Assembly: GCA_027405735.1 (NCBI GenBank)
Contig: JAPEHQ010000007.1
Coordinates: forward strand, 1,885,001 to 1,949,000
DNA from: Mucor racemosus
Taxonomy: Eukaryota; Mucoromycota; Mucoromycetes; Mucorales; Mucoraceae
DNA: 64,000 bases
Reading direction: 5' to 3'
How positions within the stretch are numbered: position 1 is the first letter of the stretch; every line of letters starts with the position of its first letter. Under the pieces are notes generated by a model. It saw nothing but the letters and a program-made list of their open reading frames with translations, made no database searches and was not told the DNA's origin. The position numbers were made by a program, and so were the translations under genes. This document shows positions 41,983-48,003 of this stretch, one piece after another.

Positions 41983-44900
41983 ATGTCCCAAAACGACCAA
42001 GAAGCTGTTTGGGAACCAAATTCAACATATCATCTTGGTATTAAGTTTTTTTTAAAGCGTGAATTATTACATGCTAACTCTCTACTTATTCAATTTAGAT
42101 GCGATTACGCCACAGTTTGATATTCCAATCGAGCAATCAGATTTTATGTATTTAGACTATCCTACAAGCGATTCAAAAAACATAGAGATGATGCCACAAC
42201 AGAACAATATCAGTAACATAGTAAAAAATGTGGATCAACTTGAAAATAGCAATTATCAATGGATTTCATGCTGCCCTGTGGTCAATGACAATCATCTGAA
42301 TTTTGCTGAAAATTGGAGCAATAATGAAGCCTTATTAGGAAATAGTATTAATAAATGTACCGAAAAATCAAGCCTTGAATACACATTTATTCAAGACAAC
42401 AGTTACGCATCTTCTAGTATGATACAACCCGGCAACGATACGAAAGAGATAGATGAACTAATCGATGATTGCAAAAACTGTATCACCAACAGCAAAAATC
42501 GTAACCCATTTGATAAAATCATTGTTTGTAAAGATTGCCAATATCAATGGAAACATCTTTTACCCAGCTATGATACTAGTAAAGCAATTAGCAATGACAA
42601 TGTAGCGCAGATGCTTCATGATCAACAAATGAGATTAACTCGCAATATGGCTCATGAATTAACTGACAAGTACGGATTTGGTCCTAATATACACGGATAC
42701 AGTCGCCATCGTCCTGTTATGGTATCCTTTTTACAAGACAAAAGCAAGAAGGAATATGTTGGCTTATTATGTGAACTAAAACAAGGAAAAGTCAAAGTCT
42801 GGGTCCCTGAAATTCAGATGTTTGAATGGTTCCCAAATGGTAGTAGACGACTTAAAATCATGGATCATCACCAAGAAAAAAGTGTAAATACAGTATCAAA
42901 TAATACCAATATTTGCAACCAAGACGAAAAGATAATGCCATGTATGCAAGCTCAAAAAGAAAATAATAAATCAATTATCAAGCGACAAAAGCCATACCAA
43001 TTGCTTACAAAAAAATCTAATAAAAAGCAAAAAAAGCAATCAAATAAAGCTATTAAAACAAGTGGTTCACATTCTACTACCATCGACAAAGTTTATTTAA
43101 CTACAGGTGCTTTTGCTACAAGAAAAGCCATACATCAGCTCAGAGATGATAAAGGCTTCATTCCAAATCCTTACGGGTATGCCAAAGATCAAGCTGTTCA
43201 AATCCTCGACACAAGAGGAAGCAAAACCAAATCCTGGTGCTGTGGAACCCTAGTAGAGATGCGATCAGGCCATGTCAAGGTACACTACAATGAACGGTCT
43301 GATACACACGATGAATGGTTTATTATTGGCAGCCGAAGAATTAGAATTGATAGTGGTGATAATAACGCTCCTATATCTAATGAATTATTAATGATGCCTG
43401 ATGTAGATCCTGATGCTCAACATGAAGCGAAGAAAAAAAGAAAATTATCAGTGATAAATCCTCGGCAAAATTGCATTAATAATTTGGAAACGCAACAGCA
43501 GCAAAGCGGCAGTGATACTACTAAACAGAACATCAAAAGGCCAATTATATCTCTTCGTATAGCTCAATATAAAGCATCAGAAACTGGACAATTTGTACCT
43601 AATGTTTACGGTTATTATTACATGCAACATGTTAAAGTTTTATATAGCGATAAGAAATATTATGAAGCTAGATTAATTTGTATACAAAAAAACAAGGTTA
43701 AGGTACATTATTGTGGGTGGATTGATACGTTTGATGAGTTTATTCCTCTTGGCAGCCAAAGAATACAACCAATAGATAGTGGTTATCAACATGCTGAATG
43801 TCTTGAGTCAAACTATCAGGAGCGTTATAAACAAATGCAGATTATAGATAGCGCATCTAGAACTCAAATTAATACTTATGCACATTATCAAAAAGATAAT
43901 AAGAAGGCTATTGTTGATAAAAGCAATCAGATTGAAGTAAAAAATGATACTGAAGAAGGTAAAGCATAAGATTTCATTGCAGTAGCAATTATGATATTAA
44001 AACCTCTTTTTTTTTATAGATGTTATTGAGGTTGTAGATGACATAATTGTAACACATACACCCAAAGTCTATTGTAATCAATGCAAAATAGATATCGAAC
44101 AATTTCGATACTATTGTTCTTACTGCGAGGCTTTATCTTATTCTAATTTAAATAGACAAGAACCCTTTCAGCTTTGTATTGATTGCTTTGATCATTGTTT
44201 TCCCAATTGGCATCAACATCCTCGCTCAGGTTTTGCTATTCAAGCAGTTATTACTGACAACTTGAATCAAAAACACAATATTACTGATAATACAAGAATG
44301 GTCTTATGGGAAGAAGATGTTTTACAAAAACAGGATAATGATTCTATAGAAGAAGGAGGGGAAGCTGATACTCCACTCAATGCTAGTAAAGTATTTACAG
44401 GTATTGATGATATCTCAACTCAAGACAAACATGGTTATTTGTTCCTTCAAAAATGGAAGGATAGAAAGATTTGCGCGTTTTGTAATGACGATGATGATAG
44501 TTCTCAAGAGCTTGGGCCATTCATAGGACCATTTATAAATACTCCCATAAAAAAGCTTGGACAAGAGAGAAAACGCACATTTTGGGCTCATGATGCTTGC
44601 GCTAGGTATTCTCCTGAAGTCAGTTATGCAGCAGACGAAGGAAAATGGTATAATGTTGCTCGTGCATTGAGACGAGGTCGAAGCATGGTAAAGGATTTAT
44701 AGACATGATGCAATATTTTATTTTACTAATAATTTAAAACAGAAATGTCATGTTTGTAAAGAAAAAGGTGCTACTATAGGATGTTTTGATTCTAAATGCT
44801 CCAAAAGTTTTCATTTGCCCTGTACTAAAAAACCAACCAGCAATTTTAAAAATGGCGTAATTTTTTGGTGCAATATTCATGAAGCATTTCATAATAAAAA

Positions 44901-47900
44901 AGGCAAGGAAATTCAAAGAAAAAATATAATGTTATTTATACACATGTACTAAATTAAATTAGATAATTATATCAATATCTTTCATTGTGATGGATGCAGT
45001 AAAAAACTCTTGAAAGATGAATTATGGTTTACATGTGAACAGTGCGCATTGACGAATTACTTTTCTTCATTTGATCTATGCAACGAGGTAAGTAGACAAG
45101 ATTCTAGTCATTGATATAATAAAATAAACTAAAGTATATCTAGTGCTATAATAATAATGATTTAATCAATGAACATAATCATGGCAAACCTGATTATAAA
45201 GAAACATGTAATGATGTAGAAATTGCCATGCAGGATAAATTAATCTAAACTAACCCTAAAATAATAGCTTATGCAAGAATAGAAGAAATAGAAATACAAA
45301 ATCAAAGCAAAAAAGATCACGGTGAGAACAACTTTGATATAGTTTTTATATATAAATTAACAAAACATATCAAAGCCAACAATCGAAACAATACAGCTAA
45401 TAAAAAGGTTCATCTGTTTCCCCCCCGCCCTCGCAAACTTGCAAACGGATCTACACCAATATCTTGCTGCTACTGTGGTACATTTGAAGCAGAAATTTGG
45501 CGTAAAGGATACGATGGAGGTATCTTAATGTGCAATGCATGTTTTGGGATGATTTATACCAATGATAATATAGAACAGCCATCACATCAAGACGTAGCTG
45601 GATTTGTAGCCGAAAACTATGTTGCTTCTATTGAAGATTATTCTCATAAACCCTATTTTACTCGAGACACATTATCTTTTACTGAACCATTAATTGGACC
45701 TCGATTAACAAGTTATGAACCACAGCCAAATCAATTGTTTTCACTTACGTTTGAATCGACTTATTTTGATATTCCAGGAAGAGCGCCTCGTTGGGCTACA
45801 CACTCTGGAACAGATTATCATGGTTTGTAGTATATTTTAAAGTTTATATTTAAACCTCACAATATTTTGATAATTTAGGGACCTGGTTACCACAAACAGT
45901 TCGCAGGTATATGAAGAATAATCACAGGAATATGATTAAAAAAATTGATTTTAAATGTAATATAGAGCTTTATTGAAACACACTAGAAAAGATGAACGAA
46001 TTTTATCCAATTTCTTGGGAAGAGGTATTTTACACTGATCTACAAAATGAAGATTTTGTTCGAGCTTCTCACTTTTCAAATTAGGAACCGATGCTATTGA
46101 ATGTTTCTTATTGCAACGAAAGTAAGCATTATTCTATCAACGTTTTAACAGATAATAACCCCCTTTTTATCCACTTACAGATGTTGTGGTATTGATATTA
46201 ATCCAGTAAGACGTAATTACAATTATTATAAAAAATACTGATTAAATATGTATTCTATTTTATCAGGTCGCTGTTGCATTGTCCCAACGCAATTGTTGTT
46301 TTGAGATTCCAGTAGGATTAACGTTTGCGGAATATAGACCCATTATTGCTCAGGCAGATGCTCGTCAATTGAATGGATCTTTATTCCAAGACAATTCATA
46401 TCATCACATCTTGTCTCATCCACCTTATAAAGATTGTGTAGCTTACTCTACACATTTAGATGGTGATCTATCTCGGTATATTTGGGGTTTGAATTAAATC
46501 GTGGTGTAATGTCAACTGAAACATTAATTATTTAGATTTACGTACATTGATGATTTCAAGTTAGAATATACTCGGGTAATTCAAGAAAGCTATAGGTATA
46601 TGTACACATTTATAAAAAAGCTTTATCAGGATTTACTAACTGTACAAAAAAAAAAAAAAAAAAGGTTGCTTAAAATGGATAGAAGGTTGACATTAGGTAT
46701 TGGAGATAATCGAGAACATTGCTTTTATATAGCAGTTGGATTTCATCTGATACGGTTATATATTGATCAAGGATTTGAATTAGAGGAATTGGTAAAAAGA
46801 AAAATAAACCTTGTTGCGATAATCACCTAATTGTTATTCGATTTATTAAAGATTGTCAAGAGACAAAGATATTGTTCAGCATTTGGTCTTGGTACATATT
46901 TATGTGTTCAATTCGATTTTCTAGTATTTACACATGAATTTATTGCTACATTTAAAAAAATACCACATGATCAGGTTGATAAGATGCCCTTAATAATTGA
47001 TAATGATGGCAAGTAAAATATATCTAAATGGGAGCATTAGCATGTTTGTTAATCATTCTCTGTAATCTAGATCCTGACATGATTAATAACTACTATAGCA
47101 GTACTTTGTATGGAATTCCATCTTCTGCCATCACAAGGAAAAGTAGAGTAATGGGCACAGTCTGGACATTTAATTTATCAAATCAATATTCATTTCCACA
47201 ACTATGTATTAGTCGAATGATTGAAAGATTTGGTCAAGATGAAAGCAATTGGTTACATGTTAAATTATCAGTTGATAGTACTACACAAGGACACTATCAA
47301 AAGCAAGAATCAGGGACTTGTAGTTTGTCAATTACTAATACCTCGGCAGGTAAATTAATAACAGTAAATTGCAAAACATACAAAACAATTTATCCGATTA
47401 TTTTTTTCCAGCTGTTGAGATAATCTCGGAATATGAACAAGAAAGATTGAGAAAGATCCAAGAGAACAACGAAATATTACTCAAGTTGGTAAGGTCTTTT
47501 TTTTATTTCAAGAATATAGACAAATATATCCTAATTATACAAAAAAGGGTCTTATCTCTGATCTAGATCAAGAATCTGTAGTCAATGACAGCATAAATTA
47601 TGATACTATGTTGAGCAACAAACCTTATATCCATGCTGATCTGGTTGTCATGGCAACAGGCCATATCGAGAATTTAATTCCAAATCAAATCAATCTTTAC
47701 CGAAGATCGATTATTCAACTCGCCCAAGATGCTTTACCTCAATTAGCAACAAAAGGAATGCTTATTATTGGCACAAAAGATATTCGAGATGAAAATACTG
47801 GTAAACTATGGCCTATTTCAATGCTTGTACTGGAAGACATTGAAAGAACAACCAGCAGATTAAGATTAAAAGAGATGGTCATTACAGTACCAGAAGGATA

Positions 47901-48003
47901 TTCCAAGAATAGAGACAGAACAGTAGCAGTTCAACAACAGCAACAAGAGGAGAATCATCTGCCAATCGTTCATGCGATATACTTAATTTTCCAGAAACAA
48001 TAA
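41983..48003 (+). CDS. Tudor/ZZ/ePHD/GATA-finger protein fused to N4/N6-type DNA methyltransferase
   Basis: Nineteen exons: 41983-42037, 42099-43958, 44020-44687, 44743-44902, 44963-45087, 45144-45207, 45268-45321, 45376-45822, 45879-45906, 45987-46024, 46085-46121, 46181-46205, 46267-46475, 46536-46595, 46665-46791, 46852-47008, 47071-47349, 47412-47488, 47548-48003. They sum to 1642 codons with no internal stop. Domains: three Tudor-knot-like repeats (about 210-275, 368-435, 513-574; each opens with G-x-x-PN-x-(Y/H)GY and two have VKVHY...DE); ZZ finger (655-710); extended PHD (789-903, RALRRGRSMKCHVCKEKGAT); ZZ finger (about 920-975); GATA-like finger (1024-1052, WRKGYDGGILMCNAC); methyltransferase (about 1110-1350) with FLGRGTDAIE, CCGIDINPVAVALS, SHPPY at 1237-1241, RLTLGIGDNREH and HEFIATFKK; degenerate methylase-like tail (1500-1640). 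It is predicted to be nuclear and to modify DNA at marked chromatin. Introns after exons 4 and 16 are GC-AG. Confidence 0.85.

Follow-up and report, generated by a model that had tools for sequence, protein, structure and literature searches.

Whether a fungus carries, in a single protein, a DNA amino-methyltransferase of bacterial type joined to several chromatin readers is the question raised by one gene of Mucor racemosus, located at 41983..48003 on the forward strand of a 64,000-nucleotide stretch of contig JAPEHQ010000007.1 (hereafter the window), for which a first-pass annotation had proposed such a fusion. The reading favoured here, with moderate confidence, is that fungi long ago captured this DNA amino-methyltransferase from bacteria and that its readers guide it; it would write on N6 of adenine more likely than on N4 of cytosine. 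The anatomy of the protein and its bacterial kinship are well supported.

The methyltransferase, its second copy and their bacterial relatives

The gene and the parts of its methyltransferase end are as follows:

41983..48003, forward strand: whole gene, 19 exons coding for 1648 amino acids (spliced model, junctions compared with orthologues)
45768..46971, forward strand: predicted HPPY-type DNA amino-methyltransferase domain, residues 1127-1366 (PF01555; hhalign to the prokaryotic family)
46012..46089, forward strand: motif I, FLGRGT, residues 1170-1175, split by an intron (spliced model, motif search)
46414..46428, forward strand: motif IV, SHPPY, residues 1244-1248 (motif search; intact in 119 of 121 proteins)
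47118..48003, forward strand: degenerate second methyltransferase copy, residues ~1395-1648 (hhalign; start at ~1395 set by eye)
47548-48003, forward strand: core of the second copy, residues 1498-1648 (hhalign)

The domain matches the DNA-methylase family PF01555 (N6_N4_Mtase) with an E value of 2.2e-11 on the whole protein and 1.1e-8 on the domain alone (44.6 and 35.7 bits, respectively, against a curated cut-off of 26.7), and its alignment by hhalign to prokaryotic HPPY DNA methylases has a probability of 100% (E 2.2e-60, 37% identity over 224 columns, nearly the whole domain). The proposal of a bacterial-type N4/N6 methylase, as opposed to an MT-A70 enzyme, is borne out by these two results. 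The best PHROG match is a DNA methyltransferase (5.9e-13), while in the NCBIfam scan of the Mucor protein no model passes its cut-off (best 0.014). The motif blocks listed in the first-pass annotation were all located in the spliced protein: besides motifs I and IV (HPPY itself starting at 1245), these are GIDINP at 1189, GIGDNRE at 1295 and HEF at 1354. Membership in the MT-A70 and MetB families was rejected, since PF05063 and PF02384, respectively, are absent among the matches listed up to E 10, and the motif is HPPY, not the DPPW of MT-A70.

LSHPPYK[DN]C is kept in 119 of 121 proteins of the family and SNFLGRGTDA, as a strict pattern, in 114 of 121; 103 fungal proteins were placed in one alignment, the 18 of 121 without the trimming motif being left out. 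Thirty-six positions, including HPPY, GxGT, D1191, GD and HE, are common to the fungal (at least 9 of 10) and the prokaryotic (at least 12 of 14) enzymes, and because of this joint retention the fungal methyltransferase is probably active. Fold searches with the whole model return the class I S-adenosylmethionine (SAM) fold and nothing more specific. This fold is common to Trm11, TrmN and Trm14, and weak matches to tRNA methylase models occur in the prokaryotic relatives, as might be expected if the enzyme acted at chromatin on RNA (tRNA, rRNA or a nascent transcript) and not on DNA. However, Trm11-type enzymes have a different motif IV, the profile match above its cut-off is one to DNA methylases, and relatives have Dam and DpnII-family genes as neighbours (see below). 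An RNA substrate is judged quite improbable; the HPPY domain likely methylates DNA.

The first-pass annotation overlooked the degenerate second copy at the C-terminus, in which HPPY and the glycine motif I are both lost. The copy aligns by hhalign with the catalytic half of the methyltransferase at E 3.3e-8, with none of 200 column shuffles as good (F_P0041, F_P0118 and L002 having been removed from the 78 rows, and rows of at most 40 letters skipped); an earlier test using a fungal-only profile was weak. It was found in 119 of 120 orthologues, a regular expression for the degenerate motif giving no placement in 10 of 121 proteins, and its best Foldseek match is N4CMT of bdelloid rotifers. A dead second copy, together with an HPPY motif devoid of the usual D/N/S residue, could also mean that the whole protein is a catalytically dead reader, its methyltransferase fold merely binding DNA or SAM. 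That seems very improbable, as HPPY is also present in free-standing bacterial enzymes, some of them beside restriction-modification genes, and nearly every fungal protein retains motifs I and IV.

The domain profile retrieved prokaryotic-looking methylases of ~245 amino acids. Among the bacterial relatives is a 532-residue protein (L002, P0184; "DNA methyltransferase", Thermodesulfovibrionales) comprising a methyltransferase and a second half, the latter matching the hidden Markov model of the fungal C-terminus at 1.5e-8. A search with this second half yielded 672 proteins, and 112 of the 120 listed are 490-560 amino acids long. The profile built from these 112, tested on eight fungal proteins, matches the Mucor protein in order, with the methyltransferase at 3e-60 and the second half at 3.5e-7; for six other fungal proteins the match of the second half is weaker (9e-6 to 0.017), and for P0111 it is missed. 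The bacterial and fungal second halves align by hhalign at E 2.3e-10 (0 of 100 shuffles as good). The C-terminal ~520 residues of the fungal protein are collinear with this ~520-residue bacterial two-part family, which the earlier account had likewise not noticed.

In a bootstrap tree of the methyltransferase domain (support given as bootstrap/SH-aLRT) the eukaryotic sequences, as one clade (100/100) on a long stem (1.39), group with the two-part bacteria at 98/86, and at 99/96 with the addition of P0142, a single-domain relative outside the two-part grouping. Two quick trees concur with lower support, the first comprising all 78 selected domains and the second giving SH-aLRT values of 83 and 98. 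In the second quick tree and the bootstrap tree 13 of the 78 were left out (12 divergent HPPYxDII domains and E_P0163) and 20 of the 120 listed two-part proteins were included; the bootstrap tree also took in L095-L099, of which L098 and L099 are single-domain relatives. The suspected bacterial ancestry is thereby supported, the eukaryotic sequences forming one clade among prokaryotic ones, nearest to the two-part bacteria. Since the tree of the methyltransferase agrees with the shared second half, the dead copy is probably older than the capture by fungi. It is of note that the N-termini of L087, L090, L093 and L095 display, by eye, a short Cys/His (zinc-finger-like) and a helix-turn-helix-like stretch, which perhaps was the original DNA-targeting part, swapped for readers in fungi.

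Gene model, reader modules and their distribution

Splice sites and open frames served for a manual assembly of the exons. The model has 19 of them, the number given before, the largest being 42099-43958; the frame formerly described as uninterrupted and 1641 residues long is open only once 18 introns are removed, and what stands is the single protein, of 1648 amino acids. The introns are 54-69 nucleotides each, 16 of the GT-AG and two of the GC-AG type (44903-44962 and 47009-47070). The joined protein aligns with annotated orthologues at 13 of the 18 junctions (3-6, 8-15 and 18; in orthologue P0002 the stretch at junctions 5 and 6 is missing), and junctions 1, 2, 7, 16 and 17 lie within poorly conserved stretches, too variable for judgement. 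Intron 7 (54 nucleotides, in frame, stop-free) might be retained in the transcript. Bacterial contamination was rejected because the gene has introns and sits on a 2.77 Mb contig, and a gene-prediction artefact is excluded by the recurrence of the modules in orthologues and by the orthologue-matched junctions. That readers and methyltransferase belong to one protein is predicted from conserved gene models.

The 1648-residue protein comprises three Tudor/MBT-like barrels, two ZZ-like fingers, an extended PHD finger, a GATA-like finger and the PF01555 methyltransferase. The modules situated before the methyltransferase are:

42656..42868, forward strand: Tudor/MBT-like barrel 1, residues 205-275, the weakest of the three (position and pattern by eye)
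43100..43363, forward strand: Tudor/MBT-like barrel 2, residues 353-440 (MBT, Agenet and chromo sub-threshold; before the methyltransferase in 117 of 120 orthologues)
43559..43789, forward strand: Tudor/MBT-like barrel 3, residues 506-582 (MBT sub-threshold; 117 of 120 orthologues)
44055..44240, forward strand: ZZ-like finger 1, residues 651-712 (C2-C2-C2-HxH pattern; homology in 120 of 120; Pfam ZZ not reached)
44469..44895, forward strand: extended PHD finger, residues 789-912 (PF13771 above cut-off; 119 of 120 orthologues)
44902..45191, forward strand: ZZ-like finger 2, residues 915-972 (ZZ_ADA2 0.0055, sub-threshold; homology in 120 of 120)
45444..45575, forward strand: GATA-like finger, residues 1019-1062 (PF00320 3.9e-5 on the fragment, below cut-off; homology in 120 of 120)

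The extended PHD finger (zf-HC5HC2H) exceeds the curated Pfam cut-off at 1.6e-10. Fragments of the barrels and ZZ-like fingers scanned alone give only sub-threshold Pfam MBT, Tudor and ZZ scores in the Mucor protein, the barrel 1 fragment having no Pfam match. In three of the four orthologues scanned the MBT scores are above the cut-off, namely in those of Rhizophagus (P0059, 1e-24), Geosiphon (P0037, 3.6e-17) and Basidiobolus (P0041, 1.8e-12); no MBT barrel was found in the fourth, that of Neoconidiobolus (P0118). Homology searches, iterated or single-pass, were seeded with segments of the Mucor protein, barrel 1 providing no seed. Ahead of the methyltransferase they detected the extended PHD finger in 119 of the 120 listed homologues, the ZZ-like fingers and the GATA-like finger in 120 each (the searches for ZZ-like fingers 1 and 2 may cross-match each other) and the barrels in 117. 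Apart from the unseeded barrel 1, the reader set first described as three Tudor-knot-like repeats, two ZZ fingers, an extended PHD finger and a GATA-like finger is thus a recurrent one. As judged by patterns, at least one C2-C2-C2-HxH (ZZ-like) motif is present in 111 of 121 proteins, a strict second ZZ-like one in 63 of 121 and a strict GATA-like one in 107 of 120. The Mucor protein appears to carry histone-reading modules, of which the extended PHD finger is the one recognised above its cut-off here.

Residues 1000-1648, used as a protein query, have 159 homologues at E <= 0.001; identity in the 120 listed is 42-77%, so a chance resemblance is excluded. The recognised names among these 120 are those of Mucoromycota- and Zoopagomycota-type fungi, including Mucorales, Umbelopsis, Mortierella-type fungi, Glomeromycota and Endogonales, and also Calcarisporiella, Basidiobolus, Neoconidiobolus, Kickxellales and Dimargaris-type fungi; there is no Dikarya fungus or chytrid among them (three rows are nameless). 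Of the claim of a new architecture the fusion of readers and methyltransferase holds, but it belongs to a whole family, represented by the 120 homologues listed out of 159, and is not the novelty of a single fungus. Among metagenome sequences further eukaryote-like branches occur (e.g., P0155, which has a finger and the methyltransferase); they are called eukaryotic by layout and tree position alone. Three other searches returned no relative: a 74-residue exon used as a query found only itself, a pattern scan of genome contigs gave 14 matches, none of them a relative, and PF01555 run exon by exon over the own genome had no match. As the last search missed even the gene in question, it says nothing on paralogues.

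Restriction-modification neighbours and the predicted product

A profile scan of genomes found 80 loci with prokaryotic HPPY methylases. Of the 25 closest (L002-L026), 18 have a Dam-type gene and 10 a DpnII-family gene in their flanks (fetched up to 4 kb, several contigs ending earlier), with Pfam or NCBIfam confirmation, where tested, by PF02086 at four loci, TIGR00571 at two and PF04556 at two. Neither Dam nor DpnII was found in the fetched flanks of the next 15 loci (L027-L041), of which L027-L038 belong to a divergent subfamily of HPPY enzymes (with HPPYWDIIKF or a like sequence), one record in it bearing the title Helicobacter pylori. At two loci (L015:3215-3970 and L019:1129-1887) a DUF6996/DUF6997 gene is located between the Dam-type and HPPY methylase genes, in the DpnII position, and its product is a possible unrecognised restriction endonuclease.

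A scan of 395 genomes of one phylum gave any match in 210, most of the listed matches being weak or partial. In four of nine genomes checked (G298, in which an open frame of 291 matches over the methyltransferase part only, was left out) the two-part methyltransferase and a DpnII-family gene share one contig. In G167 and G151 the latter lies directly next to the methyltransferase gene, as it does in G206, where it is broken, and in G244 it is ~4 kb away. No Dam-type gene was found within the 16-19 kb fetched around the G167 and G151 genes (the G167 contig ends ~4 kb past the methyltransferase), and D12 genes are present elsewhere in all four genomes. The G206 locus (L089, G206:C123), where the two-part gene is flanked by what we take to be trpB-like and trpA-like genes, with the broken DpnII-family remnant beside it, represents a restriction gene in decay and an orphan methylase left behind.

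These neighbourhoods bear on the product. That the same protein writes N4-methylcytosine (4mC) and not N6-methyladenine (6mA), like bdelloid N4CMT, would agree with the coverage of both specificities by PF01555 (PMC8885841) and with the Foldseek match of the dead copy. On the other hand, SPPY is absent from the fungal proteins, the single-domain relatives often have Dam-type 6mA genes in their neighbourhood, and 6mA blocks DpnII (PMC12707154), the type member of the partner family. 4mC as the product is rather unlikely, and 6mA would be the likelier mark.

In the favoured reading, a bacterial restriction-modification-type methylase would have been captured and chromatin readers placed in front of it. 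Through its readers the protein would dock on nucleosomes that bear particular histone marks. The GATA-like finger would help to hold DNA, and so would the dead copy, as a dead partner of the kind known from METTL3/METTL14 or Mta1/Mta9. The HPPY domain would methylate an exocyclic amino group of DNA, N6 of adenine more likely than N4 of cytosine, and may have kept GATC-like target sites from its ancestor. The protein would then add one more writer to MetB and the MT-A70 complex. High 6mA levels are found in some eukaryotes, early-diverging fungi among them (PMC12695648). In Mucor 6mA falls by 70-75% on deletion of metB, and part of what is left is symmetric 6mA made by the Mta1 complex (PMC11258239). 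A wider proposal is put forward only tentatively: non-Dikarya fungi may share a once-captured DpnII-type methylase with a dead partner, steered by readers, whose 6mA or 4mC would be part of the methylation unexplained by Mta1 and MetB. In that case an extra amino-methylation pathway, writing at chosen chromatin, would have existed in these fungi, probably from an early point of their history.

The 53-Mb M. racemosus assembly contains a PF02384 (MetB family) match, MT-A70 matches at three places and PF00145 matches at two (MetB-family, MT-A70 and C5 methylase matches at G000:C15:579900, C13:670041, C4:857525, C1:2559671, C15:131419 and C8:1217474), and several DNA-methylation routes may coexist in this genome. 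Directly downstream of the gene (48152-52813 of the window) lie two consecutive VTC-domain genes, one with DUF202 and one with SPX. In a Parasitella record (P0005) the methyltransferase and VTC/DUF202 appear in the same order as a single protein, a sign that the neighbourhood is shared and that the annotation has probably fused the genes.

Comparison with known systems

The bacterial two-part HPPY methyltransferases, nearest in the tree, resemble the fungal C-terminus in having a methyltransferase followed by a degenerate copy; they are ~520 residues long with a bacterial N-terminus, in place of which the fungal protein has chromatin readers. The single-domain HPPY methyltransferases (L003-L008, L010, L012, L016 and L022) match the fungal domain over their full length, have neither second copy nor readers, and belong to DpnII-type operons with DpnII-family and Dam flanks, where they form a second methylase, like DpnA. 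DpnA-type enzymes are permuted, and for this reason the likeness is one of analogy, not homology. In the pneumococcal locus DpnM is accompanied by DpnA, a second, single-strand methylase (PMC3573125).

MetB of Mucor is likewise a bacterial-type DNA methylase in early-diverging fungi, of the MmeI-like family PF02384, other than that of the PF01555 enzyme (PMC11258239). In Mta1/Mta9 an active methyltransferase is paired with a non-active one (PMC11258239); these MT-A70 proteins have DPPW and are separate chains, whereas the fungal HPPY protein pairs an active-looking and a dead copy in one chain. The PF01555 gene is outside the Mucor gene set tested so far by Lax et al. 2024 (metA, PF05175; metB, PF02384; metC, PF05063; mta1; p1; dmt1), the main text of which does not contain PF01555 and has "4mC" only within a reference (PMC11258239). 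A 2026 review names Mta1/Mta9, MetB and, in Botrytis, METTL4, with PF01555 unnamed in its main text; in a methylome study of Rhizophagus the survey of 6mA writers was one of MT-A70, and a 2025 Nature Genetics survey regards MetB as an alternative pathway. In a literature search of titles and abstracts, with most subscription journals and supplements outside its scope, the family is undescribed.

Bdelloid N4CMT, named in the first-pass annotation as the closest known case, is indeed also a captured bacterial PF01555 methylase joined to a chromatin reader, but of a different class, being permuted, with SPPY and one chromodomain (PMC8885841). In the fungal enzyme motif I (1170) precedes motif IV (1244), which is HPPY, and membership in the N4CMT class is ruled out by both features; these differences, with the single chromodomain, point to a separate capture. 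The reported lack of eukaryotic homologues of N4CMT (PMC8885841) is uncontradicted, since the fungal family belongs to a different class. Early-branching fungi could have in this protein a writer of DNA methylation that has so far been missing; as a conserved, reader-bearing candidate, the protein makes the placement of fungal DNA amino-methylation by histone marks directly testable. It would represent a second, independent case of the logic of N4CMT, in which histones are read and DNA is written.

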